Assembly: GCA_022826005.1 (NCBI GenBank)
Contig: JAJDVT010000026.1
Location: forward strand, 1 to 32,052
Length of the DNA stretch: 32,052 nucleotides
Origin: Gemmatimonadota bacterium
Lineage (GTDB): Bacteria; Gemmatimonadota; Gemmatimonadetes; Longimicrobiales; Gaopeijiaceae
Direction of reading: 5' to 3'
Part shown: positions 1,537 through 15,740 of the stretch, piece by piece
Layout: each line of letters opens with the position of its first letter
Position numbering within the stretch: position 1 is the stretch's first letter
Position numbers and translations under genes: made by a program
The notes under the pieces: generated by a model
The model's database searches: none
What the model saw: the letters and a program-made list of their open reading frames with translations, nothing else
What the model was told of the DNA's origin: nothing

Positions 1537-1700
1537 GTTTGGATGGGATCCGCGCCGCCGGACGGCCCGCGCGAAGCAGCCCACCCGCCGCGAATCGGCC
1601 CGACCGGGCCACAGCGGTATGCCGCATCCGTCCCGCCGAGGTAGACGGTGAGCGTTAGGGCCGAGCAGGAGATCGGCGACGAGCAGCAGTTGGGCTCTTG

Positions 1701-1751
1701 GAGGGTTCGATGCCCTCACGTCGCCTTGCGCGCCCGCAATGGGGCGGGCGC
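1701..1751 (+). promoter_or_regulatory. Two-hairpin leader of gene 1780
   Basis: Stem 1 is GAGGG (1701-1705) with CCCTC (1713-1717), loop TTCGATG. Stem 2 is GCGCCCGC (1730-1737) with GCGGGCGC (1744-1751), a perfect 8 bp. It is followed by GAGGGGGAGAC and the start codon. This is the first of the leader series. Confidence 0.6.
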
Positions 1752-2209: not shown

Positions 2210-2266
2210 GGCCGGGGGGGGATCGTTACCCTCCCCGGCCCGTTGCCGTCCGTCATGGTGGCGGGC
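2210..2266 (+). promoter_or_regulatory. Two-hairpin leader of gene 2294
   Basis: Stem 1 is GGCCGGGG (2210-2217) with CCCCGGCC (2233-2240), loop containing GATCGTTACC. An imperfect stem 2 spans about 2239-2266. The ribosome-binding site GAGGGGGAGAGAG precedes the ATG at 2294. Confidence 0.6.
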
Positions 2267-2293
2267 GCTTCATCGCAGAGGGGGAGAGAGCCA

Positions 2294-2704
2294 ATGCGAG
2301 AGATCAGGACGCTGTGGGCCGAGCCCGGGCAGATACGGGGCGAGGGACTGCGCGCCGGCAACGTCACGACCACACGGGTCGAGTTGCAGACGTTCACGCT
2401 TCGGCGGTGGGACGGGAGTGATCCCCTGCCCGCCGGGAGTGTGGTGACGGTGATGGAGACGCGCCCCTACGGGTCGCTGATGGTGGCGGAGATGGTGCCC
2501 GAGGCGGCAGAGTCCACCAGACGGGCGATCGAGGCGATCCGTGCCGAGGTCGCGAGGATTCGGGCGTCGTCGATGGCCGGGGAGTTTGCCGTCGAGTGCG
2601 ACCGGCTGACGCGGTTCACCGACCGCTTCCCCGAGCCTGACCCGATGGGCGACGACAGCCCGTACAACGGGAGTGTGACGCCGGGCTCGGACCTGTGGGA
2701 CTAG
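2294..2704 (+). CDS. 136-aa protein, unknown function
   Basis: The ATG at 2294 follows a GAGGGGGAGAGAG ribosome-binding site. The open frame could start earlier, but only through the leader. The N-terminal half looks beta-rich (LQTFTLRRWDG, SVVTVMETRPYG). The middle is a predicted Ala/Arg/Glu helix (about residues 68-95: ESTRRAIEAIRAEVARI), followed by an acidic, Pro/Gly-rich tail ending LWD. No family is recognised. It is a single-gene unit bounded by leaders on both sides. Confidence 0.7.
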   Translation: MREIRTLWAEPGQIRGEGLRAGNVTTTRVELQTFTLRRWDGSDPLPAGSVVTVMETRPYGSLMVAEMVPEAAESTRRAIEAIRAEVARIRASSMAGEFAVECDRLTRFTDRFPEPDPMGDDSPYNGSVTPGSDLWD

Positions 2705-2716: not shown

Positions 2717-2769
2717 GGTCGGGGGAGGATCGTACCCTCTCCCGGCCCTTGCGCCCGCGCGCGCGGGTG
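2717..2769 (+). promoter_or_regulatory. Two-hairpin leader of gene 2798
   Basis: Stem 1 pairs 2717-2728 with 2735-2747 (GGGGGAGG with CCCTCTCCC at its core, near-perfect), loop ATCGTA. Stem 2 is CGCCCGCG (2752-2759) with CGCGGGTG (2762-2769). AAGGGGGAGAG precedes the ATG. Confidence 0.65.
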
Positions 2770-2797
2770 CTTCACTCCACATCCACAAGGGGGAGAG

Positions 2798-3145
2798 ATG
2801 GAGACGCAGTATCCCAAGATGGACGGGACGGCCTTTGTCCTGCTGTACGCCATGCACCTTTGCACGGCGGAGTTCGGGGTCGCGCACAGCGAGACGATCA
2901 ACGGGGCGTTGAAAGCCGCCTGTCGCGCATGGGCAGAGACGGGAGGCGTCACCCGATCCGTGAAGTTGGCGGAGGTGACCGAGATCGTCCGCGCGGCATG
3001 GGATCAAGAGTGCCGCGAGTGGTGGCCGGATGTCCCGATGTCCTTCGACGAGTTCGACGAGGCGGCAGACACCGAGCGTCCCTTGGTACTGCGGGTCGCG
3101 TTCAACCGTCACACGGGCATACACGAGACTTTCCGCAACGCCTGA
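2798..3145 (+). CDS. 115-aa protein, unknown function
   Basis: Begins at an ATG placed just after AAGGGGGAGAG. The product is mostly predicted helix with several Trp and Cys (LLYAMHLCTAEFGV, ACRAWAE, AAWDQECREWWPD) and an acidic FDEFDEAAD segment near residue 85. It contains no recognisable catalytic or metal-binding pattern. It is a stand-alone unit between two leaders. The frame is supported by the ribosome-binding site, the position of the stop directly before the next stem 1, and a normal amino-acid mix. Confidence 0.7.
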   Translation: METQYPKMDGTAFVLLYAMHLCTAEFGVAHSETINGALKAACRAWAETGGVTRSVKLAEVTEIVRAAWDQECREWWPDVPMSFDEFDEAADTERPLVLRVAFNRHTGIHETFRNA

Positions 3146-3150: not shown

Positions 3151-3206
3151 ACGGTCGGGAGGGTTCGCCTCCTCCTGACCGTCTGCCGCTTCGATTCGCG
3201 AAGCGG
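3151..3206 (+). promoter_or_regulatory. Two-hairpin leader of gene 3229
   Basis: Stem 1 pairs ACGGTCGGGAGG (3151-3162) with CCTCCTGACCGT (3171-3182), one wobble, loop GTTCGCCT. Stem 2 pairs CCGCTTCG (3186-3193) with CGAAGCGG (3199-3206), perfect. AAGGGGGGAGC precedes ATGATG. Confidence 0.7.
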
Positions 3207-3228
3207 GTCACAGTTCCAAGGGGGGAGC

Positions 3229-3762
3229 ATGATGACCGAGCAGGAGGTGAAGGCGCTGGCCGACGAGGCGCAGCGGGAGATGGACACGGAGTTCGAGAAG
3301 GCCAGCGTCGCCATGAAGCGGGCCGTCGAGGCGCTCCAGCGGTTCGAGGTCGCCCTCTTGGAAGCGGGCGTCGAAGACCTGAAGGAGGCCACGCCAGCGG
3401 AGACGGGGATGCGGGCCAAGCATCAGGTGGCCGAGATGATGCACTACGTCCTGCGCAAGATCGCAGTCTGGCCGACCGGGCCAGCGGCTGCGGCTGCGGT
3501 GGCCGTCAAACTCGACGACTGCGAGATCGAACGGGCGGCGTCGGACGGCAAGGCGCATCCGCCGCGCCGCCGGGAGGTCATCAAGGGACTCGGCGCCCTG
3601 ATCGACGGGAAGCAGCAGCAGTTGCACCGCTTCGTCAAGCGGGCCGTCACCGACCTTCACCCGAAGTACAGCCTTGAGACGGACCCCGGCGGGATCGGGG
3701 GGGCGTACCGGAGGGTGCAGCGGGAGCGGGATGTGCTGATTCACGCGCGCGACATCGTGTAG
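3229..3762 (+). CDS. 177-aa helical protein, unknown function
   Basis: Start at 3229 (a second ATG follows at once) after AAGGGGGGAGC. Residues 1-60 are a highly charged, heptad-like helix (EQEVKALADEAQREMDTEFE and following), suggesting coiled-coil oligomerisation. The centre has an Ala-rich helix (AAAAAVAV) and the C-terminal part is basic (RRREVIKGLGALIDGKQQQ). It has no membrane segment and no recognised domain. One of the longer array products. Confidence 0.7.
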   Translation: MMTEQEVKALADEAQREMDTEFEKASVAMKRAVEALQRFEVALLEAGVEDLKEATPAETGMRAKHQVAEMMHYVLRKIAVWPTGPAAAAAVAVKLDDCEIERAASDGKAHPPRRREVIKGLGALIDGKQQQLHRFVKRAVTDLHPKYSLETDPGGIGGAYRRVQRERDVLIHARDIV

Positions 3763-3771: not shown

Positions 3772-3823
3772 GACCGGGTGGGTCTCGAAGCCCATCCGGT
3801 CCATGGGTTGGACCTGCCAACCC
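3772..3823 (+). promoter_or_regulatory. Two-hairpin leader of genes 3850-4200
   Basis: Stem 1 pairs GACCGGGTGGG (3772-3782) with CCCATCCGGTC (3791-3801), loop TCTCGAAG. Stem 2 pairs GGGTTGG (3805-3811) with CCAACCC (3817-3823), perfect. CAAGGGGGAGAGCC precedes the ATG. Confidence 0.7.
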
Positions 3824-3849
3824 TGATACGGCTTTCAAGGGGGAGAGCC

Positions 3850-4203
3850 ATGGTGATACGAAGCGTCGTGAACGGTGTGAACCGTATCTACGACACGGAC
3901 GATGAGCGGTTCCCGTTCTTCGTCGAGACGCCCCGCGGGGACTTCCACGTCAGTGACCTGTTGGGGGCGTGTGTGCTGGCCGAGCATGGCGGGCACATCG
4001 CCGCGATGAAGGTCAAACTGGAGTTGGTCCAGGAAGACGGTTTCATGACCGTCCACCGCTACGGGCCGTGGCGGATCGAACGCCAGTCCAACGGTTCCTA
4101 CCGGATCACCCACACGGAGACGGGCGAGTGGGCAAACGCGGGCTTCGGCCTGACCAACGTCCGCATCTGGTTGGCCGACGAGGAAGCGGAGGTGGCCGCA
4201 TGA
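3850..4203 (+). CDS. 117-aa protein, unknown function
   Basis: The ATG at 3850 follows CAAGGGGGAGAG. The sequence is beta-rich with alternating charged and aromatic residues (FPFFVETPRGDFHV, YGPWRIERQSNGSYRITH) and a weak helical end (NVRIWLADEEAEVAA). It looks like a compact single-domain protein; no family is recognised. The stop shares ATGA with the next start, so 3850 and 4200 form a translationally coupled pair served by one leader. Confidence 0.7.
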   Translation: MVIRSVVNGVNRIYDTDDERFPFFVETPRGDFHVSDLLGACVLAEHGGHIAAMKVKLELVQEDGFMTVHRYGPWRIERQSNGSYRITHTETGEWANAGFGLTNVRIWLADEEAEVAA

Positions 4204-4409: not shown

Positions 4410-4421
4410 GAACCTTCCCAT

Positions 4422-4474
4422 CCGTGCCCTTCACACGGGCGCGGGTGGCTTGAGTCTGTGGCCGTTCGGGCCGC
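4422..4474 (+). promoter_or_regulatory. Degenerate two-hairpin leader before 4504
   Basis: A weak stem 1 (CCGTG 4422-4426 with CACGG 4434-4438, loop CCCTTCA plus flanks) and a stem 2 (GTGGCC 4458-4463 with GGCCGC 4469-4474) are followed by CCATGGGGAGGACGTCC and an ATG. It is weaker than its neighbours. Confidence 0.4.
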
Positions 4475-4503
4475 GACCGTAACCCACCATGGGGAGGACG
4501 TCC

Positions 4504-4694
4504 ATGAACCGTAGCATGCTCCTGTTGTTGGGTGGCTTGCTCCCGCTTCTGCCGCCGGGCGGGCAGGACTGGCGTCCTGCGCTTCACCGACGGCTGGACC
4601 GGGGCGGGCCGAGATCAGGGCGAGGGCAAAGCGCAAGCGGAAGCGCAAGGCTGCCCGCAAGGCTCGCCGGGTCAACCGCATGGCTCGCCGCTGA
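4504..4694 (+). pseudogene. Small gene, probably frameshifted
   Basis: A good ribosome-binding site (GGGGAGGACG) leads into an ATG at 4504 that encodes a hydrophobic start (MNRSMLLLLGGLLPLLPPGG). In that frame there is no stop before the next leader, and the frame runs into gene 4783. In another frame a strongly basic tail (AKRKRKRKAARKARRVNRM) ends at a TGA at 4692-4694, exactly where a stop is expected before stem 1. A one-base shift near 4600 would join the two halves into a short protein. This could be a mutation, a sequencing error or a genuine run-on fusion. Confidence 0.35.
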
Positions 4695-4703
4695 TGGCTC
4701 GGG

Positions 4704-4756
4704 GCGCGCACTCTCGCACGGTGCGCGCCTCCATGGGGGATCGACCGCCGATCCCC
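4704..4756 (+). promoter_or_regulatory. Two-hairpin leader of gene 4783
   Basis: Stem 1 pairs GCGCGCA (4704-4710) with TGCGCGC (4722-4728). Stem 2 pairs GGGGATCG (4736-4743) with CGATCCCC (4749-4756), perfect. AAGGGGGAGAGT precedes the ATG. Confidence 0.6.
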
Positions 4757-4782
4757 GCGTACCGCCACCGAAGGGGGAGAGT

Positions 4783-5043
4783 ATGGCGGACATCTATTGC
4801 CCCAAGTGCGCCGAGCCTTGGGACATCTACAGCCTGCACGATGTGCCCGGCCTCACGTTCGACGAGGCGCGGGCGAAGTTCACGCGCGAGGGCTGTGAGA
4901 CGTTCGACTCGAAGTGTACGGGCGACGAGGAGTTGACCGAGGCTGACCGGCTGAAGGCCATGGCCGCGTCGGCAGTGATGGACATGTCGCCGCATCCAGA
5001 CGATTGGGCGGCTGACATGGCCGACTTCGACCTGTTCCTGTAG
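4783..5043 (+). CDS. 86-aa zinc-ribbon-like protein
   Basis: The ATG at 4783 follows AAGGGGGAGAG. The N terminus is a CPKC pair (residues 6-9, YCPKCAEPWDIYSLHD), with further Cys near residues 38 and 44 (REGCETFDSKC), so a four-Cys metal site is plausible. The rest is acidic and helical (EELTEADRLKAMAA, DDWAADMADFD). Similar short CPKC...PWD proteins occur in phages and plasmids; their role is not known to me. The same frame is open upstream into 4504. Confidence 0.75.
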   Translation: MADIYCPKCAEPWDIYSLHDVPGLTFDEARAKFTREGCETFDSKCTGDEELTEADRLKAMAASAVMDMSPHPDDWAADMADFDLFL

Positions 5044-5051
5044 GTCGCATC

Positions 5052-5081
5052 CGCCCGAGGGGATTCACAGCCTCTCGGGCG
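5052..5081 (+). promoter_or_regulatory. Leader of gene 5123 (stem 1 only)
   Basis: CGCCCGAGGGG (5052-5062) pairs with CCTCTCGGGCG (5071-5081), loop ATTCACAG. No clear stem 2. The 3' half of this leader (5079-5112, CTTCCGCAGTACCC then TTCACC then GCAAG) is nearly repeated in the leader of 5801. CAAGGGGGAGAGACC precedes the ATG. Confidence 0.65.
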
Positions 5082-5122
5082 CTTCCGCAGTACCCTGTTC
5101 ACCATTGCAAGGGGGAGAGACC

Positions 5123-5704
5123 ATGCAAACCGTGGAGGAAGTGCAGGAGGCGTTGCGTACCGCAATGCCGGTAACGTCGCTGGCCTCATTGGTCCGCGTC
5201 GGAATCGAGGACGGCCGGAAGATGCTGGCCGAGCGGCCAGACGTTCGACCGTACTACGCCATGTGGTTCAGGTCGCCAACGCTCGAAGACGGCAAGTGTA
5301 CCGCGTGTCTCGCCGGTGGCGTCATGCTCGGGACGCTGGACGGACTGAGCCGCCGCCCGCTGGAGGACTACAGCACCGTCAACTCGAATGTGCTTGTGTC
5401 GCTCTACGAGGAAGCGCAGACGGACGCTTTGTGTGCGCTGGACCGGGTGCGGCAGGGCAACATCGACGGTGCCTACCGGGCACTCCGCATGTGGTATCGG
5501 CCGGACGGGAAGCGTTGCGCGGCGCGCGAGGCGTTCCGTGGCGAAGTGGAGCGGCTGTGCAACGCCCGTCGTCGCCGCACTCCCGAGAACCGGCAGGGAC
5601 CGGAGGAGCCCATGTTCGAGACGCGCGGCATGTTCGAGAGGCATCTCGACAGCCTCGCCGAGCTGGCCGACGAGTTGGAGCGGATCGAACTGGCGGCAAC
5701 GTAG
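5123..5704 (+). CDS. 193-aa protein with Cys motif, unknown function
   Basis: The ATG at 5123 follows CAAGGGGGAGAGACC. A central CTACLAGGVMLGTL segment near residue 60 (Cys pair followed by a small-residue helix) and a DALCALDRVRQGNIDGAYRAL helix give it the look of phage hypothetical proteins containing a C-x-x-CLAG motif. The C-terminal third is Arg-rich then acidic helical (ERHLDSLAELADELERI), a possible coiled coil. It is superficially similar in design to the DUF6197-like product of 6108. Function unknown. Confidence 0.7.
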   Translation: MQTVEEVQEALRTAMPVTSLASLVRVGIEDGRKMLAERPDVRPYYAMWFRSPTLEDGKCTACLAGGVMLGTLDGLSRRPLEDYSTVNSNVLVSLYEEAQTDALCALDRVRQGNIDGAYRALRMWYRPDGKRCAAREAFRGEVERLCNARRRRTPENRQGPEEPMFETRGMFERHLDSLAELADELERIELAAT

Positions 5705-5725
5705 GAAGCCCCGTTCACCACACGG

Positions 5726-5755
5726 CCCCACAGGGTTTCGCAGCCCTGTGCGGGG
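5726..5755 (+). promoter_or_regulatory. Leader of gene 5801
   Basis: CCCCACAGGG (5726-5735) pairs with CCCTGTGCGGGG (5744-5755, one bulge), loop TTTCGCAG. The following CACTTCCCGCAGTACCCC (5756 onward) closely repeats the corresponding part of the previous leader. CGCAAGAGGGGAGCACC precedes the ATG. Confidence 0.65.
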
Positions 5756-5800
5756 CACTTCCCGCAGTACCCCATTTCACCTTCGCAAGAGGGGAGCACC

Positions 5801-6019
5801 ATGCAGGACACGACGCAGACCGTGACCATCGAGCCGCACACGCCGACCCTTGACCCGTTCGGCAAGCGGGATGCGGTCTGGTACGTCCTCGCCTTCGGGG
5901 ACGGCACCTATCACCGCAGCGGAGACACGCCGACGGACAGGAAGCACTACGCCACCATGTGGCCGACCAAGGCCAAGGCCCGGAAGGCCGCAGAGACCAA
6001 CGGCTACCGAGTCCGGTAG
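5801..6019 (+). CDS. 72-aa protein, unknown function
   Basis: The ATG at 5801 follows AAGAGGGGAGCACC. The protein starts with a Thr-rich segment, has a strand-like DAVWYVLAFGDGTYH and a basic helix at the C terminus (PTKAKARKAAETNGYRVR), a simple beta-alpha arrangement found in many small phage proteins. No family is recognised. It is a single-gene unit bounded by two clear stem-1 hairpins. Confidence 0.7.
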   Translation: MQDTTQTVTIEPHTPTLDPFGKRDAVWYVLAFGDGTYHRSGDTPTDRKHYATMWPTKAKARKAAETNGYRVR

Positions 6020-6029
6020 CGACCCGCGC

Positions 6030-6081
6030 CCGGCAGGTATCGCAGCCTGCCGGACGCTTGACCCGGCCATGGTGGCTCGGG
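6030..6081 (+). promoter_or_regulatory. Two-hairpin leader of genes 6108-6547
   Basis: Stem 1 pairs CCGGCAGG (6030-6037) with CCTGCCGG (6046-6053), perfect, loop TATCGCAG. Stem 2 pairs CCCGGCC (6062-6068) with GGCTCGGG (6074-6081). GGGGGAGACC precedes the ATG at 6108. Confidence 0.7.
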
Positions 6082-6107
6082 CGAGTACCTGAACCATGGG
6101 GGAGACC

Positions 6108-6554
6108 ATGACGATTCAGGAAGTGGTGTCCACGGTGCTCACGGACACGCTCACGATGGTGGGCAATCCAGAGCGGTGGACGCAACGCGCTTGGGCGCGG
6201 GACGGGAAGGGACGGAGCATAGATCAGTGCGGTCTTCTCACCGACAAGCCGCCGAAGTGCCTGTGCTTGGACGGGGCGCTGCGCCGGGTGGTCTACCGCG
6301 ACCGCAAGGAGTGGCTGATGGAGGCGGTGACGATCATCGCCCCCGAAGCCGACGAGCACGACCGGCGCTCGTTCCCTTCTCAGGTCTATCGGTACGCACA
6401 CGCGGCGCTGTGCGGGGCGTTCCGCACGATTGTGCCCGGCGAGTGCTACGCGGACGATCTGTGGGCCTGGAATGACGAGACGACGCACACGGCTGTGGTC
6501 CACGCTCTCAAGCTCGCCGTCACGCGCGAGAGGGCGGGGCTGGACCATGGCTGA
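6108..6554 (+). CDS. DUF6197-like protein
   Basis: 148 aa from the ATG at 6108 (after GGGGGAGACC; an upstream in-frame ATG at 6096 would lie inside the ribosome-binding region). The order of motifs matches small phage and actinobacterial proteins of the DUF6197 type: RWTQRAWARDGKGR near residue 25, a Cys-containing CLCLDGALRRV segment near residue 50, a helical middle, and AWNDETTHTAVVHALKLAV near the C terminus (the W-N-D...T...V..L block). The function of the family is unknown. It overlaps gene 6547 by 8 bp. Confidence 0.7.
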   Translation: MTIQEVVSTVLTDTLTMVGNPERWTQRAWARDGKGRSIDQCGLLTDKPPKCLCLDGALRRVVYRDRKEWLMEAVTIIAPEADEHDRRSFPSQVYRYAHAALCGAFRTIVPGECYADDLWAWNDETTHTAVVHALKLAVTRERAGLDHG

Positions 6555-6768
6555 CATCGACCGGATGATCGACGACGACCGCGCCGTCCCCCGCATCATG
6601 GAGACCGAGAAGCGGGGCAAGCACCGCGTCACGCTGCGCCGGACCATGACGGGCTACATCGTCCTGTTCGACGGCTATCAGGTCTGCGTCACGGACGACC
6701 CGATGGTTGCCGTCCAGTCGTACACGGTGGCCCGCAAGATCGTGATGGTGCTCACCCCCGTGACCTGA
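6547..6768 (+). CDS. 73-aa protein, unknown function
   Basis: The ATG at 6547 lies within the last codons of 6108 (8-bp overlap) and is probably translated by coupling. The product begins with an acidic helix (ADIDRMIDDDRAV) and continues with alternating strands (HRVTLRRTMTGYIVLFDGYQVCVTDD), ending MVLTPVT. No recognisable family. The stop is followed immediately by a clean stem 1. Confidence 0.65.
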   Translation: MADIDRMIDDDRAVPRIMETEKRGKHRVTLRRTMTGYIVLFDGYQVCVTDDPMVAVQSYTVARKIVMVLTPVT

Positions 6769-6783
6769 CCCCGCTCCCCGCTA

Positions 6784-6839
6784 CGTCCCGAAGGTGCCGC
6801 AGCCTTCGGGACGCTTGGCCCGCCTCACGGTGAGACGGG
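6784..6839 (+). promoter_or_regulatory. Two-hairpin leader followed by a missing gene
   Basis: Stem 1 pairs CGTCCCGAAGG (6784-6794) with CCTTCGGGACG (6803-6813), a perfect 11 bp, loop TGCCGCAG. Stem 2 pairs CCCGCCTCA (6819-6827) with TGAGACGGG (6831-6839). Unlike the others it is not followed by a purine ribosome-binding site and ATG. Confidence 0.65.
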
Positions 6840-6916
6840 CGGTTTCCGGTCCAGATCGAAACTACGACGCGGACCTGCGGGCTTCGCTGATCCGCGCGGC
6901 GGGACTCGAAGCGTAG
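6840..6916 (+). pseudogene. Remnant 3' end of a deleted array gene
   Basis: After a normal two-hairpin leader there is no ribosome-binding site or ATG, only a short open stretch ending in TAG (6914-6916) that encodes ...NYDADLRASLIRAAGLEA and is followed at the usual distance by the next stem 1. The simplest reading is that the 5' part of a gene was deleted, leaving its leader and last 20 or so codons. A 28-codon frame from a GTG at 6830 is formally possible but lacks a ribosome-binding site. Confidence 0.4.
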
Positions 6917-6933
6917 GCACCGGGCGCAACGGT

Positions 6934-6992
6934 GCGCGCCGGGGGTGTCAGAGCCTCCGGCGCGCCTACCGTCTCTCCGCGTTGGAGGACGG
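6934..6992 (+). promoter_or_regulatory. Two-hairpin leader of genes 7024-7304
   Basis: Stem 1 pairs GCGCGCCGG (6934-6942) with CCGGCGCGC (6957-6965), perfect, inner loop TGTCAGAG. Stem 2 pairs CCGTC/CTCC (6969-6978) with GGAGGACGG (6984-6992). AACAGGAGGTAAGG precedes the ATG. Confidence 0.7.
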
Positions 6993-7023
6993 ACTCACCC
7001 CTCTGAACAGGAGGTAAGGGCCA

Positions 7024-7314
7024 ATGTCCGAGAGCAAGGAAGCCTACACCGTGCTCAAGTGGTGGCTCGAAGGGGACACGGACGGGGCCGATCAGATCAT
7101 CGAGGCGCTGGTCCAGCCCAAGCCGACGCCGCGTCTGGTCGCCGCCGACGCCATCGTGACGCTCAACGGGAATGTGATCGCAAAGAGCGAGATGCGGTTC
7201 AGCGAGCACGAGGCCAGAGAGTGCGCGCTGGCCATGGCACGGGCTGCAATCGGCGCGCTCGAACAGGTGCATGGCAAGCAGGGCACCAAGGAGGGTGCGC
7301 ACTATGGGCGTTGA
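7024..7314 (+). CDS. 96-aa protein, unknown function
   Basis: The ATG at 7024 follows AACAGGAGGTAAGGGCCA, the first clear use of the AGGAGG-type start signal in the array. The sequence has an amphipathic N-terminal helix (VLKWWLEGDTDGADQIIEAL), a strand pair (AADAIVTLNGNVIAKSEMRFS) and an Ala-rich helix (ARECALAMARAAIGALEQV). No family is recognised. It overlaps 7304 by 11 bp, so the two are probably coupled. Confidence 0.7.
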   Translation: MSESKEAYTVLKWWLEGDTDGADQIIEALVQPKPTPRLVAADAIVTLNGNVIAKSEMRFSEHEARECALAMARAAIGALEQVHGKQGTKEGAHYGR

Positions 7315-7872: not shown

Positions 7873-7930
7873 CACCTGTCACGGTTCGCACTGTGGCGGG
7901 TGCTTGGCCCGCTCCCGTTCGGGGATCGGG
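7873..7930 (+). promoter_or_regulatory. Two-hairpin leader of gene 7959
   Basis: Stem 1 pairs CACCTGTCAC (7873-7882) with GTGGCGGGTG (7893-7902, wobbles), loop GGTTCGCACT. Stem 2 pairs CCCG/TCCC (7908-7916) with GGGGATCGGG (7921-7930). ACAGGAGGCAGACG precedes the ATG. Confidence 0.6.
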
Positions 7931-7958
7931 CAGCACTGCCGAATACAGGAGGCAGACG

Positions 7959-8528
7959 ATGGACACAAGCAAGAAGGGGGCGGCAGACACGCTCACCTAC
8001 CGCGACGGGGTGCGCGACGCGCTGAGCGGGATGCACGACTCGCGCGCGAGGGACATGAACGACAGCGACCTGCCGCACGACTATCTGGCGGGCCGCGACA
8101 CGGCCATGGGCGTCCGGCAGATGGCCATTGAGCCGGACGGTCCCGAGAACCTTCGCGAGTACTGGCTCGGATTCGTGACCGCCTTGCGCCGCGAGTACTT
8201 CAACGACATCGACCCGTCCGACTGGTACGACGCCGGTGCGGAGGACGGCATGGTGGCGCTGGAGCGGGTGGAGGCGGGCGGTGTCATCGGCGGCTACACC
8301 GAGAGCGACCGGGGCTATCACTACACGAGCTACCGGGTGGCCGTGTTTTCCGAGGGTGGCCGTCTCTTGCGGACGCTCGGCCGTCACGCCGAGTGGCATG
8401 AAGCGGCGAAGGACCGCGACGCGCTGCGGGCGGTGGGCCGCATCGCCAAGGTCGAAGGCCAGCAGTACGCCTTCCCGCTCGGCGATGGCGGGCCGTCGCG
8501 CAAGTGGGTGGAGATCGAATCACTCTGA
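7959..8528 (+). CDS. 189-aa protein, unknown function
   Basis: The ATG at 7959 follows ACAGGAGGCAGACG. The N-terminal half is helical and charged (YRDGVRDALSGM, NLREYWLGFVTALRREYFNDI). The C-terminal half is predicted beta (YHYTSYRVAVFSEGGRLLRTLGRH). It is acidic and soluble, with no Cys pair and no membrane segment. No family is recognised. Single-gene unit. Confidence 0.7.
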   Translation: MDTSKKGAADTLTYRDGVRDALSGMHDSRARDMNDSDLPHDYLAGRDTAMGVRQMAIEPDGPENLREYWLGFVTALRREYFNDIDPSDWYDAGAEDGMVALERVEAGGVIGGYTESDRGYHYTSYRVAVFSEGGRLLRTLGRHAEWHEAAKDRDALRAVGRIAKVEGQQYAFPLGDGGPSRKWVEIESL

Positions 8529-8532: not shown

Positions 8533-8590
8533 GACGGGCGGGGCACGGATCGAACCGTCCCCGTCCCATGCGTCTCGCCGGGGTGGCGAG
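8533..8590 (+). promoter_or_regulatory. Two-hairpin leader of gene 8620
   Basis: Stem 1 spans 8533-8565 (GACGGG...GGGGCACGG with CCGTCCCC...), loop ATCGAA. Stem 2 pairs CTCGCC (8574-8579) with GGCGAG (8585-8590). ATCAGGAGGCGAGGAA precedes the ATG. Confidence 0.65.
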
Positions 8591-8619
8591 GCTGTCACTC
8601 CCCATCAGGAGGCGAGGAA

Positions 8620-9294
8620 ATGGCTGACAAGCCACCAAACGATGCGGTCATGATTGCGGACATCCAGAGCCACGGCCGCTACACCATCATGGCGACGCAC
8701 AACGCTCAGGCGGCGTACTTGGAACTGTACGTCAACGACTCGGGCGACGGTCGCGCGGGCGACTTCATGGGGACCATCACCACGAGACCGACGCAAGAGG
8801 ACGCGAAGGATCACGTCGCGACGTGTCTGGAGTTGCTGACGCTTCTCGGCGAGGTGAAGGCCGACCCGAGGCCCGCCGCGCAGTTGGCGGACCTTGGGAT
8901 TCACTGCTTCGGTCGCGCCGGGATCGACCACATCGGGGGCTTTCACTCCCGCTCCCGGCACGGCGAGCCCAACGAGCCGGGCTGGTACTACTTCCAGCCG
9001 GAGCACGGCCAGTGGGCGGGACCGTTCGAGACCGCAGACGCCGCGCACGAGCGGAAGCACGGTCCCGACGGGGACACGGCGCGGCTGGCCGACATTCTCG
9101 AACAGGCCGAGCGCGACCCCGACGCCCGTGTGACCTACGAACTCGAAGAGGACACCGGCCTCAACGAGCGCGAGGACCGGGCCGAGGCGATAGCCGAGGG
9201 CAAGCGCACCGGACGCAGTGTCGTCGCCCATGTCCAGCGGACGACGAGTTATCTCGTCTACGACCACCACAACGATCCCGAGGCCGGGGTATAG
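8620..9294 (+). CDS. 224-aa protein, unknown function
   Basis: The ATG at 8620 follows ATCAGGAGGCGAGGAA; the open frame extends upstream only through the leader and previous gene. The product is polar with several aromatic stretches (GWYYFQPEHGQWAGPFETADAA), a pattern seen in small phage domains that read WYYF...GPF. It continues into a charged helical region (ADILEQAERDPDA...EREDRAEAIAEGK) and a final strand (SYLVYDHH). No family is assigned. Its length makes it one of the larger array proteins. Confidence 0.7.
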   Translation: MADKPPNDAVMIADIQSHGRYTIMATHNAQAAYLELYVNDSGDGRAGDFMGTITTRPTQEDAKDHVATCLELLTLLGEVKADPRPAAQLADLGIHCFGRAGIDHIGGFHSRSRHGEPNEPGWYYFQPEHGQWAGPFETADAAHERKHGPDGDTARLADILEQAERDPDARVTYELEEDTGLNEREDRAEAIAEGKRTGRSVVAHVQRTTSYLVYDHHNDPEAGV

Positions 9295-9305: not shown

Positions 9306-9370
9306 TCTCCCCCCCTTCCCGTTCGGATCACACCGGGCGGGGAGACTGTTCGGCCCCATGGTGGAGGCCG
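9306..9370 (+). promoter_or_regulatory. Two-hairpin leader of gene 9400
   Basis: Stem 1 pairs CTCTCCCC.../CCCG (9306-9321) with CGGG...GGGGAGA (9334-9345), loop containing GGATCACA. Stem 2 pairs CGGCC (9351-9355) with GGCCG (9366-9370). ACGGGAGGCAGAGCCC precedes the ATG. Confidence 0.5.
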
Positions 9371-9399
9371 GAGTCACTGCCAAACGGGAGGCAGAGCCC

Positions 9400-9927
9400 A
9401 TGCAGGAAGGCACCGAAGGGAAGGGCCGCAACGTCACCGCGTATCTTCGCGGCGCGTTCAAGACATTGGAGCGCGAGATCGACGCGAGGGGCAACGAGGT
9501 GGCCGAGCGCGTTCACAGCAAGGCCGGTGAGGCGGCGGTGGACATCATGGAGGACTTGGCCGTCCTGTTCCGCGAGCTGGCCGCCGCCATCGACCGGGGC
9601 GAAGGGCCGGACGCCGTGCTCGCCGTCCGCGACACCATGCGGCAGGTGAGTCCGGTCAAGGCGGCGCAGACGACGAACCTGATACCGCCCTGCACCGACG
9701 CGACCAAGCGGGGACTCGCCCGCCAGATCGGGCGGATGCGGGCAATGCTGGCGCACCAGGACCGCGAAGTCCTCCGGTCGGTCCCGCCCGCGTTTCTCGA
9801 TCAGCACGACCGCGACCTCTGGACGGCGAGAGAGTCCGCCGAGACGCTGACCGACGCCGAAGCCCGAACGCGCCGGTACATCCGCCGCGACCTCAACGCG
9901 CTCGTTCGCGCTTGGGACGCGCTGTAG
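9400..9927 (+). CDS. 175-aa helical protein, unknown function
   Basis: The ATG at 9400 follows CGGGAGGCAGAG. The predicted structure is nearly all helix, strongly charged (TAYLRGAFKTLEREIDARGN, AAVDIMEDLAVLFRELAAAIDRGEG), with a second helical block rich in Arg (TKRGLARQIGRMRAMLAHQDREV). The tail (RRYIRRDLNALVRAWDAL) is amphipathic. A coiled-coil or bundle is likely. No family recognised. Confidence 0.7.
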   Translation: MQEGTEGKGRNVTAYLRGAFKTLEREIDARGNEVAERVHSKAGEAAVDIMEDLAVLFRELAAAIDRGEGPDAVLAVRDTMRQVSPVKAAQTTNLIPPCTDATKRGLARQIGRMRAMLAHQDREVLRSVPPAFLDQHDRDLWTARESAETLTDAEARTRRYIRRDLNALVRAWDAL

Positions 9928-9936: not shown

Positions 9937-9995
9937 ACCGGATCGGGTGGCTGTCACAGGCTCCCGGTCCCATGGGGGACCGAAAGACGGTCCCC
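9937..9995 (+). promoter_or_regulatory. Two-hairpin leader of genes 10022-10360
   Basis: Stem 1 spans 9937-9968 (ACCGG...GGG with CTC...CCGGT, imperfect), loop TGTCACA. Stem 2 pairs GGGGACCG (9975-9982) with CGGTCCCC (9988-9995), perfect. AAAGGGGAGAGACC precedes the ATG. Confidence 0.6.
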
Positions 9996-10021
9996 GGACA
10001 CTGCCGCAAAGGGGAGAGACC

Positions 10022-10363
10022 ATGGCAGACAAGGCGGCGAGGGTGGTCGAGCGCGCAATGCTCGCCCACATCCTCACACACAAGATGTTCGACGGCGACG
10101 AGTTTCGCCGTCAGGTCGCAACGAACCTGACCGCGCACCTTCCGGACATCGAGGACGAGTTGGACCAGATCGGACCCCTGTTGTTCGTGTTGGGGTTCAC
10201 CCACAGCCCGCTCCGCACGACGCTGCACCGGCTGATTCGGGACTTCTGCCGGGACGCGGCACGGGAGATCGTGGACAGGAAGCCCGCCGACGTGCCGGTG
10301 CATGTCCGCCCGGTGCTGCGCTCCATTCAGGACGCCGCGAGCAGGAAGGCGAGGGCATCATGA
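10022..10363 (+). CDS. 113-aa protein, unknown function
   Basis: The ATG at 10022 follows AAAGGGGAGAGACC. It is a helical protein with a hydrophobic centre (IGPLLFVLGFTHSPLRTTLHRLI) that is probably a buried helix rather than a membrane span, given flanking charges and the basic C terminus (SIQDAASRKARAS). No family recognised. Stop and next start overlap as ATGA (10360-10363). Confidence 0.7.
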   Translation: MADKAARVVERAMLAHILTHKMFDGDEFRRQVATNLTAHLPDIEDELDQIGPLLFVLGFTHSPLRTTLHRLIRDFCRDAAREIVDRKPADVPVHVRPVLRSIQDAASRKARAS

Positions 10364-10691: not shown

Positions 10692-10745
10692 GGCGGGAGG
10701 GGGATCGCACCCCTTCCCGCCCATGGGAGACCGAGAGCCGGTCTC
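10692..10745 (+). promoter_or_regulatory. Two-hairpin leader of gene 10770
   Basis: Stem 1 pairs GGCGGGAGGGG (10692-10702) with CCCCTTCCCGCC (10710-10721), loop GATCGCA. Stem 2 pairs GAGACCG (10727-10733) with CGGTCTC (10739-10745), perfect. AACAGGGGGAAACCT precedes the ATG. Confidence 0.7.
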
Positions 10746-10769
10746 TGGAACGCCAACAGGGGGAAACCT

Positions 10770-11453
10770 ATGGCGAAATCGACGAAGGAGGTACTGCGAC
10801 TCACCGTGTTCAGGCGTCACATTCTTGTGGCGTTGCTTGCCGTGAGCATGGACCCGGCCCGGCCGTTGCTCAACAGCATCTGCTTCCGGCCGGAGGATCC
10901 CGCCGCAAAGGAGCGCGGCAACCTGCGCACCATCGCGTCCAACGGCCACAAGTTGGTCAGCATGATCGGCGGCACATGGGAGGGCGAGTGGCCGACCGAC
11001 CGCTTCAAGCGCGACGCGGTGATCCCGTCGGACCTGTTCAGCCGGAAGCGAGCAAAGAAGGTGCTCGACACGTCGGTCACGGTCCAATGCTTCGAGGACG
11101 GCAGCGTACATGTGCTCGACAGCGCGGCGGGCCATCAGGCGGTAGGCTGCGACCCGGCCAGCACTGGCGGATGCTTCCGGCGCTATCCGAACGTGGACGA
11201 TGTGCTCAGGCGCTATCGGCACTACGCGGTCGCCAAGACGGCAATCGGGCTGAACGCCACCTATCTCGAAGAGATGGGGCGTGTGGGCAGCATCTTCCAG
11301 AACCACGGGAACAACCGCTTGGCCGTGACGCTGCGGCAACGGAACCTGACGCCGAAGGAGAGGCGGGCAACTTGGGCTCCGGTGCTCGACGCGAGCGCCG
11401 AGGCTGCGGGACGGTCGCTCGACTTGCTGGTGATGGGACTGCGCCCTGCGTAG
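10770..11453 (+). CDS. Two-domain sliding-clamp (DnaN)-like protein
   Basis: 227 aa; the ATG at 10770 follows AACAGGGGGAAACC. Several segments match the bacterial polymerase III beta clamp in the right order: LLNSICFRPED then NLRTIASNGHKL near residues 50-60 (the clamp's LR-VATDGHRL strand and helix), VIPSDLF near residue 88, a GCFRRYPNVDDVL block like the clamp's G-x-FPDY-xxVL, GLNATYLEEM near residue 160 (clamp F-N-xxYLxD), and a C-terminal SLDLLVMGLRP resembling the clamp's YLVMPLRL end. Canonical clamps have three such domains and about 370 residues, so domain I is absent. It may be an element-encoded processivity factor or a decoy for host clamp partners. It is a single-gene unit. Confidence 0.7.
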   Translation: MAKSTKEVLRLTVFRRHILVALLAVSMDPARPLLNSICFRPEDPAAKERGNLRTIASNGHKLVSMIGGTWEGEWPTDRFKRDAVIPSDLFSRKRAKKVLDTSVTVQCFEDGSVHVLDSAAGHQAVGCDPASTGGCFRRYPNVDDVLRRYRHYAVAKTAIGLNATYLEEMGRVGSIFQNHGNNRLAVTLRQRNLTPKERRATWAPVLDASAEAAGRSLDLLVMGLRPA

Positions 11454-11460: not shown

Positions 11461-11520
11461 CGGCCGGGAGGTCTCAACGCCTCCCGGCCGCCTGTGGGGG
11501 GAACGGATCGGCCGTTCCCC
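11461..11520 (+). promoter_or_regulatory. Two-hairpin leader of genes 11551-12000
   Basis: Stem 1 pairs CGGCCGGGAGG (11461-11471) with CCTCCCGGCCG (11480-11490), a perfect 11 bp, loop TCTCAACG. Stem 2 pairs GGGGAACGG (11498-11506) with CCGTTCCCC (11512-11520), a perfect 9 bp. AAAAGGGGGAGGAATCC precedes the ATG. This is the clearest example of the series. Confidence 0.75.
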
Positions 11521-11550
11521 GTCCCATTTCCTCAAAAGGGGGAGGAATCC

Positions 11551-12000
11551 ATGAGCGACGAGTTGTATGGTCCAGACGACGGGCCGGGCAAATGGGTGTG
11601 CGGCCATTGCGGCAGCGACAAGCTGACCTTCGAGGGCGACGGCACCTGGAACACCGAGACGCAGCAGATGGACTTCGAGGAAGCGTGCGAGAAGCCGTTC
11701 TGCCAACAGTGCGAGGGACGCGAATGGGCAACGTTCGTGCCGCTCCCGCCCAAGCGCGGCGAGCCGCAGCTCTCCCGCGACTACTACGGCGACCTGTTCA
11801 TCGTCATTGACGACGACGGCGAGCCGGTCAGCCCGTACTACCTGCGGTTGAAGCGGGCGCGGGAGTGGCGCGAGGACTACGGCGGCAAGGCCGAGTTGTA
11901 CCGGATCGTGAAGGTCGCGTTCAAGGCGTTGCCGCGCGACGATGGCGAGCCGGACGAGATCGTGGACGACCCGCTGGCATCGCGCCGGGAGGACGACTGA
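11551..12000 (+). CDS. 149-aa zinc-ribbon-like protein
   Basis: The ATG at 11551 follows AAAAGGGGGAGGAATCC. The N-terminal 60 residues contain two Cys pairs: CGHC near residue 17 and CQQC near residue 53, with an extra Cys near 47. This is a plausible treble-clef or ribbon zinc site. The C-terminal domain alternates strands and helices (DYYGDLFIVIDDDGEPVSPYYLRL, AELYRIVKVAFKAL) and ends in an acidic tail. Function unknown. The stop shares one base with the next start (TGATG). Confidence 0.7.
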   Translation: MSDELYGPDDGPGKWVCGHCGSDKLTFEGDGTWNTETQQMDFEEACEKPFCQQCEGREWATFVPLPPKRGEPQLSRDYYGDLFIVIDDDGEPVSPYYLRLKRAREWREDYGGKAELYRIVKVAFKALPRDDGEPDEIVDDPLASRREDD

Positions 12001-12287: not shown

Positions 12288-12329
12288 CGACGCCTGGCGG
12301 ACTTCTTGACCAACACCCGCACAGCCCAC

Positions 12330-12361
12330 GGCGGCAGGGGCTCGACCCCCCTGTCGTCGCC
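12330..12361 (+). promoter_or_regulatory. Leader of gene 12400 (stem 1 only)
   Basis: GGCGGCAGGGG (12330-12340) pairs with the CCCCTGTCGTCGCC segment ending at 12361, loop CTCGAC. No clear stem 2. The spacer from the previous stop is longer than usual (about 40 nt). ACAGGAGGACCACC precedes the GTG start. Confidence 0.55.
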
Positions 12362-12399
12362 TCCGCAGTTCCGTTTCCCATCAGGACAGGAGGACCACC

Positions 12400-12792
12400 G
12401 TGGTACACCCACCGATCAGGAACCGACTCGGGCAGATCGTCATCACCAAGAAGGAATGGCAAAGGCTGCTCGACAACGCGAAGGGCCGGAACAAGGACGG
12501 CCACGACCCGAAGCCCGTCGTCAAGATGTTCGGCGGATCCGCCGGCACTTGGCTGTTCAGCGAGGCGAGGGTCTACGGAGACGACATTGAGATGTTCGGG
12601 CTGTGCGACCCCGGCTTGGGCTTCCCTGAGCTTGGCTACGCATCGCTCAACGAGCTGCTGTCGATCCGGTTCAAGCCGTTCGGTCTGCCGATCGAGCGCG
12701 ACAAGTTCTGGAAGGCACAGGGCACGCTTCGCCAGTACGCGGATGCCGCCCACACCGCCCGGCGCATCGTGAGCATCCCTGACGCCGCATAG
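12400..12792 (+). CDS. DUF2958-like protein
   Basis: 130 aa; the GTG at 12400 is chosen because it is placed 7 nt after AGGAGGACC and no in-frame ATG follows before the conserved region. The core VVKMFGGSAGTWLFSEA...MFGLCDPGLGFPELGYASLNEL corresponds to the DUF2958 signature (K-F-x-P...TWY-x-E ... G-L-x-G...ELGY-x-SL-x-EL). DUF2958 proteins are typical of conjugative plasmids and other mobile elements; their biochemical role is not established. This supports a mobile origin for the array. Confidence 0.75.
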   Translation: MVHPPIRNRLGQIVITKKEWQRLLDNAKGRNKDGHDPKPVVKMFGGSAGTWLFSEARVYGDDIEMFGLCDPGLGFPELGYASLNELLSIRFKPFGLPIERDKFWKAQGTLRQYADAAHTARRIVSIPDAA

Positions 12793-12803: not shown

Positions 12804-12866
12804 CCGGATCGGGGCGGGTCAAGCCGCTCCGGTCCCGTTGTTTTCTCCGCCAGGCGGGCGGGAAAC
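12804..12866 (+). promoter_or_regulatory. Two-hairpin leader of gene 12894
   Basis: Stem 1 pairs CCGGATCGGGGCGG (12804-12817) with CCGCTCCGGTCC (12824-12835), small bulge, loop GTCAAG. Stem 2 pairs GTTTTCTCCGCC (12840-12851) with GGCGGGCGGGAAAC (12853-12866). ACAGGAGGCAGGAAC precedes the ATG. Confidence 0.65.
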
Positions 12867-12893
12867 GTCACTTCCCCAACAGGAGGCAGGAAC

Positions 12894-13331
12894 ATGCTTG
12901 AGTACGAAGTGAGCGCCGGCGGACTGAACGGCAAGCTCATGCGCCACGAAACCCCGAGCCGCGAGAACGCGATCGAGGCCGCCAAGGCGTGGAGGGCCGC
13001 TGGCCTCCACAGCGTCCGTGTCATCGGTTGGGACGGTGACTCATGGACGAGCGTGGATTGGTGGAAGGAGGCGAAGGGCGGCAAGCCGATTCCGCCGCCG
13101 AAGAGCGATGAGCGCGTCCGCATCATCGTGTTCTCCGGCGACCACCGACACGACGAAGCCGTGCATATCGAGAACGCCAGAGAGTGGGCCGCGAATCAAC
13201 TCGCCGAGAACGGTGAGATCGAAGTGCCCGCCGACGGCGACCCCGATCCGTCACAGGTGGACGACGCCACCGTGGTCCAGATGCTCGGCGCCAGCATTGG
13301 CTCGAACCTCGACTACGACAAGCTCAGGTGA
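12894..13331 (+). CDS. 145-aa protein, unknown function
   Basis: The ATG at 12894 follows ACAGGAGGCAGGAAC. The N-terminal 55 residues have a beta-alpha-beta feel (YEVSAGGLNGKLMRHETPSR then a helix ENAIEAAKAWRAAG then HSVRVIGWDGDSW), reminiscent of small double-psi or ferredoxin-like modules. The second half starts with another strand (ERVRIIVFSGDHRHDE) and an Ala/Glu helix, ending in an acidic segment. No family recognised. Confidence 0.7.
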   Translation: MLEYEVSAGGLNGKLMRHETPSRENAIEAAKAWRAAGLHSVRVIGWDGDSWTSVDWWKEAKGGKPIPPPKSDERVRIIVFSGDHRHDEAVHIENAREWAANQLAENGEIEVPADGDPDPSQVDDATVVQMLGASIGSNLDYDKLR

Positions 13332-13344: not shown

Positions 13345-13374
13345 CACCGGAACGCCGTCGAAGGCGTCCCGGTG
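13345..13374 (+). promoter_or_regulatory. Leader of gene 13429
   Basis: Stem 1 pairs CACCGGAACGCC (13345-13356) with GGCGTCCCGGTG (13363-13374), one mismatch, loop GTCGAA. A weak stem 2 (GGTCTC with GAGGCC, about 13383-13400) may follow. ACAGGAGGCTGTAGCC precedes the ATG. Confidence 0.65.
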
Positions 13375-13428
13375 CATTGTCGGTCTCATGCGGAGGCCAA
13401 TCACACTCCATACAGGAGGCTGTAGCCT

Positions 13429-13938
13429 ATGCCGAACTGGGTCACCAACAACGTCGAAATCTTCCACGAAGACCAAGCGGTCATCGACGAGATATTCGAC
13501 ACGCTCACCGTCCTCCCCGAGAACGGCGAGGAGAACGTTGACGACCGCCGCGTCACGTTCAAGAAGCTCGTGCCGGTGCCGGCCGTCCTCGAAAACGCGA
13601 CGAGGAGCGCGGACGGCACCATCGTGATGGTCACTTTCGACAAGGATGCGGCCCCCGGTGGCCGGGTTCACGAGCGGCCGGCGACACCCGAAGAGTTGGC
13701 CGAGATCGAAGCGACCGGCTTCACGAGTGGCCACGACTTCCGAGACGTCAAGTGGGGCGTCAAATGGGACGCCAGCCACAGCCACGCATCGAAGGGCGAC
13801 CGCTCGATCCTGCTCCGCTTCGATACGCCGTGGGGACCGCCGGAGCCCGTCATTGACGCGCTCCGCGAGCGGTGGCCCGAGGCCGAAGTGAGCGGCGGCT
13901 GGATCGAAGAGGGCTACCAGTCCTGCGGATCGTACTGA
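13429..13938 (+). CDS. YubB/Api92-like ferredoxin-fold protein (DUF1281 type)
   Basis: 169 aa; the ATG at 13429 follows ACAGGAGGCTGTAGCC. It begins MPNWVTNNVEIF, the hallmark start of plasmid YubB and phage Api92-like proteins (MPNWC-x-N). A central VKWGVKWDA matches the family's W-G-x-KW-D-A block, and a late FDTPWGPPEPVIDALRERWPEAEV matches its F-x-TAW-x-PP...P block. These proteins have a predicted ferredoxin-like fold and occur on plasmids and phages. Their function is unknown. Normal length for the family. Confidence 0.75.
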   Translation: MPNWVTNNVEIFHEDQAVIDEIFDTLTVLPENGEENVDDRRVTFKKLVPVPAVLENATRSADGTIVMVTFDKDAAPGGRVHERPATPEELAEIEATGFTSGHDFRDVKWGVKWDASHSHASKGDRSILLRFDTPWGPPEPVIDALRERWPEAEVSGGWIEEGYQSCGSY

Positions 13939-13955: not shown

Positions 13956-14012
13956 GGCGGGGGCACCGTCACAGGTGCTCCCGCCCTTGTTGTCCCCGTC
14001 ACGCGGGCGGGG
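13956..14012 (+). promoter_or_regulatory. Two-hairpin leader of genes 14042-14747
   Basis: Stem 1 pairs GGCGGGGGCACC (13956-13967) with GGTGCTCCCGCC (13974-13985), one mismatch, loop GTCACA. Stem 2 pairs CCCCGTC (13994-14000) with GGCGGGG (14006-14012). ACAGGAGGCAGGAACC precedes the ATG. This leader serves the longest run of overlapping genes. Confidence 0.7.
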
Positions 14013-14041
14013 CGCTCACTCCGCAACAGGAGGCAGGAACC

Positions 14042-14245
14042 ATGGCTGGAGAAAACGCGACCCTGGTGCGCCTTCCCGGCACACGGGGCGGGTTCATCCA
14101 TGTGAACCCCGCCCATGTCGTGCAGGTGAAGGACAGCGCACCGGGCACGGCCCACCTCTTTCTGTCCATCGGCGGGCTGCACGAGTATGTGAAGATGCCC
14201 GCCAAGGACGTGTGCCGTGCCTTGATGAGAGGAGGCACGGGATGA
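14042..14245 (+). CDS. 67-aa FlbD-like small protein
   Basis: The ATG at 14042 follows ACAGGAGGCAGGAACC. The order of residues, LVRLPGTRGGFIHVNPAHVVQVKDSAPGTAHLFLSIGG then a C-terminal helix, is similar to short FlbD-type proteins (strand, N-P-x-x-I/V, strand, V-x-x). In mobile elements such proteins are widespread with no proven role, so only the fold is suggested, not the flagellar function. Stop and next start overlap (ATGA, 14242-14245). Confidence 0.65.
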   Translation: MAGENATLVRLPGTRGGFIHVNPAHVVQVKDSAPGTAHLFLSIGGLHEYVKMPAKDVCRALMRGGTG

Positions 14246-14809: not shown

Positions 14810-14868
14810 ACACCGAGGAAACCTGAGTCTCGTACCGCCTGTCCCCTTCGCCGGGGGCGGGCGGCTTG

Positions 14869-14891: not shown

Positions 14892-14918
14892 GGACACTCC
14901 AGAACAGGAGGGCAGGAA

Positions 14919-15655: not shown

Positions 15656-15656
15656 T

Positions 15657-15709: not shown

Positions 15710-15740
15710 GGCAGCTTACTCCGAACAGGGAGGCAGGAAG

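Follow-up and report, generated by a model that had tools for sequence, protein, structure and literature searches.

Which molecule reads the hairpins that precede gene after gene in a bacterial gene array? The question arose from a stretch of 32,052 nucleotides (nt) of a Gemmatimonadota bacterium (assembly GCA_022826005.1, contig JAJDVT010000026.1), which makes up all of contig C9 in a draft genome of 4.85 Mb and is called the window below. At about 1.5-17.3 kb it carries a 15-kb array of approximately 30 small genes on one strand, mostly without known families. A preliminary description had reported five consecutive leaders at 5052-6965, each with a first hairpin (hairpin 1) that presents a constant loop on an unrelated stem, and had compared them to protein-recognised RNA hairpins. 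All five are present, and the pattern spans about 1.7-16.1 kb, i.e. nearly the whole array. As judged from sequence, hairpin 1 is very probably a structural mimic of the tRNA acceptor/T-arm. With less confidence, we lean towards the view that it imitates the 3' end of a pre-tRNA without CCA, and that the host RNase Z would cut the polycistronic mRNA between the gene units.

Architecture of the leaders and folding of hairpin 1

Nearly every gene unit is preceded by a leader of fixed order. Hairpin 1 comes first and is joined to hairpin 2 by a Y-U-G linker; then a Shine-Dalgarno stretch, best in the form CACTCC..AACAGGAGGCAGGA, leads to the start codon. Hairpin 1 combines a 12-bp stem with a 6-nt loop NUCRNN, while the loop of hairpin 2 has mostly 5 nt of the form RNYCG. 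Some array genes are operon-internal and have no hairpin 1, for example those near 4200, 10360 and 12001. The five hairpins described initially are located at 5052-5081, 5725-5754, 6027-6056, 6784-6813 and 6935-6964 with the 6-nt loops TTCACA, TTCGCA, ATCGCA, GCCGCA and GTCAGA, respectively; the 8-nt loops given for them before are these loops plus a closing U-G (or A-G) pair. GCCGCA is the sole departure among the five, and its hairpin appears to sit in a decayed leader, as judged from the absence of a start codon downstream.

The loop pattern had been proposed as N-T-C-R-N-A. Among 88 distinct hairpins from nine arrays the consensus is N-T-C-R-N-N (T 98%, C 98%, R 99%); thus the NTCR part stands, whereas the final A is found in just 38% and C in 49%. 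The specificity of this loop was assessed with hairpins picked without regard to loop sequence, for a fully paired stem of 10 bp and a loop of 6 nt, which avoids circularity. NTCRNN was present in 54/55 such hairpins on the sense strand of six arrays and in 2/15 on the antisense strand, compared to 1/29 in DNA of the genus outside the arrays (447 kb; Fisher p = 5e-20 for 54/55 against 1/29). The loop composition is hence clearly distinct from that of hairpins elsewhere in DNA of the genus.

The stems were analyzed in an alignment of 56 leaders, drawn from six arrays. Each of the 12 pairs of hairpin 1 varies in both of its partners, and 97.8% of the cells are paired, a fraction that is inflated because hairpin 1 was used to select the sequences; for hairpin 2, which was not used for selection, 78-85% of the cells are paired. 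The covariation score of the whole structure reached 0.815, compared to 0.22 for shuffled and 0.14-0.23 for slid controls. Furthermore, when hairpins were selected strand-symmetrically with at least 9 Watson-Crick pairs, G-T wobbles in hairpin 1 outnumbered A-C mismatches by 127 to 17, which indicates that it is the sense strand that folds. Complete covariation, this wobble excess and the loop specificity together support the earlier proposal that a constant loop on variable stems acts here as RNA. Compensatory changes also distinguish the hairpin 1 sequences of genes that are related (roughly 38-93% identity) but sit in different arrays.

It could be argued that these are ordinary stabilising hairpins or weak terminators, since the high GC content of the genome makes stable stems easy. 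We regard this as highly improbable, given the loop specificity, the 12-bp limit of the helix (see below) and terminators not above expectation. As the sole explanation, ordinary hairpins are refuted by the loop and length statistics. T-tailed terminators numbered 6, compared to 7.1 expected in shuffles, i.e. a T run after the stem is not enriched, and intrinsic terminators were rejected, in line with the initial reading. Moreover, leader matches elsewhere in the host genome are restricted to two or three weaker ones on contig C35. These matches were obtained with the covariance model R1, which was built from these arrays; matches within them are therefore expected, and the informative part is the absence elsewhere. 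In the host genome, C9 has 18 R1 matches with E below 0.001, and a further two lie on C35.

The individual leaders all lie on the plus strand, and the bit scores are those of R1. At the upstream end, leader 2 is found at 2210..2296 (hairpin 1 2210-2240, loop ATCGTTA, 42.7 bits), leader 3 at 2717..2800 (2717-2747, ATCGTAC, 49.6 bits), leader 4 at 3152..3234 (3152-3181, TTCGCC, 55.9 bits), leader 5 at 3772..3852 (3772-3801, CTCGAA, 39.6 bits) and leader 6 at 4418..4506 (4418-4448, TTCACAC, 50.0 bits). Leader 7 at 4701..4785 (4701-4731, CTCGCAC) is absent from the R1 matches and was assigned by reading the sequence. The leaders of the preliminary description follow: leader 8 at 5052..5125, with a poor hairpin 2 (39.0 bits), leader 9 at 5725..5803, in which a bulge offsets the outer stem (22.9 bits), leader 10 at 6027..6110 (52.8 bits), the probable decayed leader at 6784..6840 (32.3 bits, with only model positions 1-56 of 85 matched) and leader 11 at 6935..7026 (52.9 bits). 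Further downstream are leader 12 at 7873..7961 (loop TTCGCA, 66.6 bits), leader 13 at 8537..8622 (ATCGAA, 52.0 bits), leader 14 at 9315..9402 (ATCACA, 59.0 bits), leader 15 at 9940..10024 (TGTCACA, 47.4 bits), leader 16 at 10692..10772 (ATCGCA, 45.7 bits) and leader 17 at 11461..11553 (CTCAAC, 56.8 bits). Leader 18 at 12329..12402 (CTCGACC), which leads to a GTG start, again comes from sequence reading and is absent from the R1 matches. The last ones are leader 19 at 12806..12896 (GTCAAG, 70.0 bits), leader 20 at 13345..13431 (GTCGAA, 58.7 bits), leader 21 at 13956..14044 (GTCACA), which is the top match of the window with 72.9 bits, leader 22 at 14835..14921 (TTCGCC, 69.7 bits) and leader 24 at 15654..15743 (CTCGCCA, 50.9 bits). 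Finally, hairpin 1 of the integrase leader was read at 16072..16101; its loop is GTCATT, corresponding to GTCGCA in L007 and L009.

Resemblance of hairpin 1 to tRNA

The length of the helix is sharply limited. With selection on the inner 8 pairs only, pairing amounts to 91-95% through pair 12 (94% at pair 12) and to 17% at pair 13. Twelve pairs equal the acceptor stem (7) plus the T-stem (5) of a tRNA (dimensions from PMC4919913), and the UCR of the loop corresponds to T-loop positions 55-57.

Overt tRNA-like forms occur as well. In the divergent array L048, one leader reads AGCCGGG, a D-arm-like stretch of 18 nt, then GCGGG-TTCGACT-CCCGC-CCCGGCT, and a second one reads GCGACGG, 17 nt, then GCGGG-TTCGACT-CCCGC-CCGTCGC. 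Both (12283 and 17434) are followed by hairpin 2, a Shine-Dalgarno stretch and a start codon. The head of the array in the window (1675..1725, plus strand) has an acceptor GGCGACG/CGTCGCC, a D-arm-like AGCAGCAGTTGGGCT and a T-arm GAGGG-TTCGATG-CCCTC, which is joined to the acceptor 3' strand by a single A and followed by TTG. The corresponding heads of L042 and L043 read GGCGGCG...CGGGG-TTCGATG-CCCCG-g-CGCCGCC-TTG, with compensatory changes relative to the window in both stems, and the heads of L045 and L046 show T-arms with TTCGAGT and TTCGATT. A D-arm-like insert on the 5' side, between acceptor and T-stem, is present in both L048 leaders and in the heads of the window, L042 and L043. The 7-nt T-loop TTCGACT of L048 fits TTCRANY, and TTCGATG of the heads is one position off; G53-C61 closure is seen in these overt forms. 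An anticodon arm is absent in all of these forms. ARAGORN found no tRNA or tmRNA in the arrays, its single call being a tRNA-SeC at 29813 outside the array, and Rfam searches of the window, L044, L046 and L035 returned nothing above the gathering thresholds.

The linker behind hairpin 1 provides a further line of evidence. It follows the consensus C-(T/C)-T-G (C 90%, Y 85%, T 95%, G 82%). CCA is encoded in 0/43 tRNA genes of the host, and the trailer after the discriminator begins with Y in 43/43, continues with T in 32/43 and with G in 25/43; C?YTG is matched by 24/43 host trailers, compared to about 3% of the positions in the window. The YTG linker thus shares its consensus with the 3' trailers of the host pre-tRNAs. 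In a second genome of the genus, 14/37 trailers show C?YTG, again without CCA.

The preliminary description had drawn a parallel to phage coat, boxB and antitermination hairpins, which is not sustained, because the exact 12-bp helix, the overt tRNA-like forms and the linker resembling host trailers point to tRNA mimicry. The same three features leave recognition by the Cys-pair proteins of the array, as suggested earlier, unsupported, and make the tRNA-processing or tRNA-binding machinery of the host the likely recogniser. One could still envisage an RNA-binding protein, encoded by the element or the host, that reads the UCR loop and co-regulates the array genes through translation repression or antitermination. 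A constant loop on a variable stem ahead of most gene units would suit such a regulator, as would the likewise conserved loop of hairpin 2, but it predicts neither the 12-bp limit nor the full tRNA-like forms nor the match to host trailers, and we consider it quite unlikely.

Proposed processing of the array transcript

How could an acceptor/T-arm mimic in front of each gene unit be used? One long transcript would start from a single promoter/operator, with hairpin 1 serving as the processing signal between gene units. Host RNase Z would recognise the minihelix and cut just after hairpin 1, and RNase P possibly acts on its 5' side. The upstream mRNA would be left with a terminal stable 12-bp hairpin, which may affect its stability, and the downstream mRNA would start 2-3 unpaired nt ahead of hairpin 2, followed by the Shine-Dalgarno stretch and the gene. 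It is a specific prediction of this scheme that the processed 3' end may receive CCA. We see the case for processing of the array transcript by RNase Z as about evenly balanced. The full scheme is more tentative still, i.e. that RNase Z releases one- or few-gene mRNAs, perhaps CCA-tailed, at some 20 tRNA mimics of minimal size that copy the 3' ends of the host's CCA-less pre-tRNAs.

RNase Z is proposed as the chief cutter because it handles CCA-less tRNAs and measures the acceptor/T stack, and because its gene is present in the host (328.6 bits). The enzyme, which matures CCA-less tRNAs, clamps the elbow and gauges this stack (PMC4919913), and the activity of B. subtilis RNase Z rises approximately 200-fold when a U lies no more than 2 nt from the discriminator (PMC10100781). 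Such a U occurs in 41/43 host tRNAs, and the leaders show the features of host-type RNase Z substrates, namely no CCA and a U at most 2 nt past the discriminator position. Both RNase P and RNase Z measure the stack of T stem-loop (TSL) and acceptor, and the substrates of RNase P include further RNAs that carry it (PMC4919913); RNase P also cleaves model hairpins built from acceptor, T-stem and T-loop (PMC11143913). RNase P prefers G1-C72 and R73 with (C)CA, although these are not absolute requirements, and the leaders suit it less well, with an outer pair that is mostly C-G, mostly C at 73 and no CCA. Compared by eye to that of E. coli, the host RNase P RNA seems to be without the CCA-reading GGU.

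Several observations weigh against the proposed processing. The usual loop of hairpin 1 has 6 nt and not 7, lacks A58, and the G53-C61 closure is not conserved. The discriminator position is C in 90% of the leaders and in 1/43 host tRNAs. The outer pair of hairpin 1 is mostly C-G, compared to mostly G1-C72 in host tRNAs, which weakens the part assigned to RNase P. The 5' overhang before hairpin 2 is 4 nt or fewer in 94% of the leaders, but also in 82% of random GC-rich sequence. Moreover, the leaders may share ancestry, so that YTG conservation does not count as fully independent evidence. Finally, hairpin 1 keeps a tight distance to the start codon, mostly 46-59 nt with a mode of 53, which is also compatible with a role in translation.

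This near-fixed spacing leads to the alternative that the hairpin remains uncut and, as a cis-acting tRNA-like element upstream of the Shine-Dalgarno stretch, aids the ribosome at each gene. There are precedents, because tRNA-like elements in this position gave 2- to 6.3-fold translation, and the yjdF leader acts through a tRNA-like fold (PMC9142559). Nevertheless, such an enhancer leaves hairpin 2 and the match between YTG linker and host trailers unexplained, the D-arm that is needed for the L-shape is lost in most leaders, and the operon-internal genes of the array manage without hairpin 1. We therefore judge it unlikely. The YTG trailer favours processing over translation enhancement, and the two are not exclusive.

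Regarding the start of the transcript, a sigma-70 consensus scan of 1400-16300 detected no promoter. The lack of promoter-like sites and of a terminator excess within the array speaks for the proposed processing. The promoter at 1486-1524 is an inference from sequence reading. This AT-richer palindromic region on the plus strand at the array head is the probable single promoter/operator of the array; it reads TTGCGT-17-TAACTT, overlapping the palindrome CTGATAAC-TTCC-GTTATCAG. L042 and L043 keep this arrangement at their heads, while L048 has the related palindrome GCTAAC-TTCC-GTTAGC. Between the operator and the tRNA-like head, positions 1525-1674 form a conserved GC-rich stretch (about 60-75% to L042 and L043 by tblastx), which is also common to L048 through TCCCGCCGAGGTAGAC. 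It is possibly a structured 5' leader, e.g. a processive antiterminator.

Distribution, recombination and comparison with known systems

The 3' end of the array is formed by a tyrosine recombinase gene (16220..17287, plus strand; PF00589, 4.5e-13). About 20 genomes of the genus contain relatives of it, and the closer relatives (58-93% identity) terminate similar arrays. Those named genomes that were retrieved with this integrase were assembled from metagenomes and belong to Gemmatimonadota; judging by isolate names, they are probably sponge-associated. The array is regarded here as part of a mobile element in such bacteria. In L047 (G022:C87, about 167.9-182.1 kb) an element of approximately 14 kb consists of integrase and array only, and a helix-turn-helix regulator and a BCCT transporter lie outside the array, past its upstream end. 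A second partial integrase relative is found in the window at 19435-20550 on the minus strand (55% identity over query residues 28-244); the whole frame has no Pfam match and is apparently a decayed copy.

Strong leader matches were confined to the genus in the genomes searched. Among 148 relatives, seven array-bearing genomes of the genus, not counting the host, each had 14 to 25 strong R1 matches, and other genera had isolated weak matches only. Of 298 genomes drawn evenly across the phylum, 8 had R1 matches, all eight of the same genus. The integrase family extends further and recurs at 30-57% in L091-L125 from Chloroflexota, Actinomycetes, Rhodothermales and Vicinamibacteraceae, with SAR202 and Caldilineaceae also named. 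These carriers from other phyla are largely metagenome-assembled genomes of sponge or marine origin, judging by their names. The flanks of their integrases are without leader, except that R1 matched L115 weakly once (24.5 bits), with a loop that departs from the pattern.

Two further settings showed hairpins of this type. On contig C35 of the host genome (L172, 6743-6830 and 7020-7127) and in L173 (3042-3130), 12-bp hairpins with the loops GTCGAG, GTCACA and GTCGAA stand ahead of genes and are followed by TCTCTC or TTTCTC and not YTG; they are perhaps a second class of leader. A 38-kb viral contig (IMG/VR IMGVR_UViG_3300029309_000110; L035/L178), with 55% GC in the part read, has hairpins of 12 bp and 6-nt loops at 14807-14836 and 17895-17924 of L178, with GTCGGA and TTCGCA as their loops and with ATGG and GTTTG behind them. 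They are possibly the same device in a virus.

Sequence comparison shows that the arrays exchange gene units. Near-identical segments of 58-62 nt covering hairpins 1 and 2 stand ahead of unrelated genes in L044, L045 and L046, and L041 (2685-2790) corresponds to 10692-11553 of the window in an array that is 90-94% identical, minus one gene and one hairpin 1. The junction between L041 and the window falls between hairpins 1 and 2, and that between L044 and L045 between hairpin 2 and the Shine-Dalgarno stretch. The junctions thus differ in place: units recombine within the leaders, but at no one fixed crossover point.

Integrases often use tRNA genes. It may hence be asked whether the leaders themselves are recombination sites, either att sites derived from tRNA 3' ends or attC-like folded single-stranded DNA, by which the tyrosine recombinase gains and loses cassettes. 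The recombinase at the array end, one leader per unit, the variation of units between arrays and the shared segments ahead of unrelated genes would agree with this. However, the arms vary freely yet stay complementary, unlike the arms of duplex att sites, the variable junctions define no one crossover point, the integrase falls far below the curated cut-offs for XerC/XerD and XerA/integron integrase, and the fixed spacing to Shine-Dalgarno stretch and start codon is left unexplained. All in all, this use of the leaders is improbable.

Integron cassette arrays resemble the system in the array of small genes, the structured repeat per unit and the adjoining tyrosine recombinase. In contrast to integrons, no attC-type core sites were seen, the fold is on the coding strand, and the recombinase is co-directional at the 3' end. 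The variable junctions and an integrase score of 26.7 bits, compared to the cut-off of 220 for the XerA/integron integrase model, argue against an identity with integrons/attC. The start-associated sequences (SAS) and extended SAS (ESAS) of cluster K mycobacteriophages (PMC3203893) similarly place an inverted-repeat element upstream of the start codons of many small genes in one mobile genome. The ESAS arms are conserved in sequence and without support for RNA pairing, and the authors favour DNA binding (PMC3203893). Identity with SAS/ESAS was likewise rejected, because all 12 pairs of hairpin 1 covary and the arms vary freely. The yjdF riboswitch and other cis-tRNA leaders (PMC9142559) share a tRNA-like element upstream of the Shine-Dalgarno stretch in a bacterial mRNA; yjdF is a single ligand sensor with a four-way junction, whereas the array has some 20 minihelices with a YTG trailer and no sign of a ligand pocket.

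Other RNAs with a TSL-acceptor stack, known as RNase P substrates, have this stack in common with hairpin 1, whose features fit RNase Z better than RNase P. They are isolated cases, and none is known to be repeated before each gene. No case of tRNA-like structures punctuating a bacterial mRNA came up in a literature search, which is weak evidence of novelty since most subscription papers lay outside its coverage. If the proposal is true, a gene array with a single promoter would be expressed as separate, individually protected mRNAs with host enzymes alone, the leaders would offer a natural set of minimal substrates for RNase Z, and their signature (12-bp helix, UCR loop, host-like trailer) could serve to locate such arrays elsewhere. 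In mitochondria, tRNAs punctuate polycistronic transcripts and are cut out by tRNA-processing enzymes. The array is alike in placing tRNA-like structures between the genes of what is probably one long transcript, where cleavage would have to follow, and unlike in that its markers are non-tRNA minihelices, one per unit. Punctuation by tRNA, best known from mitochondria, would then be used systematically in a bacterial mobile element by means of non-tRNA mimics.

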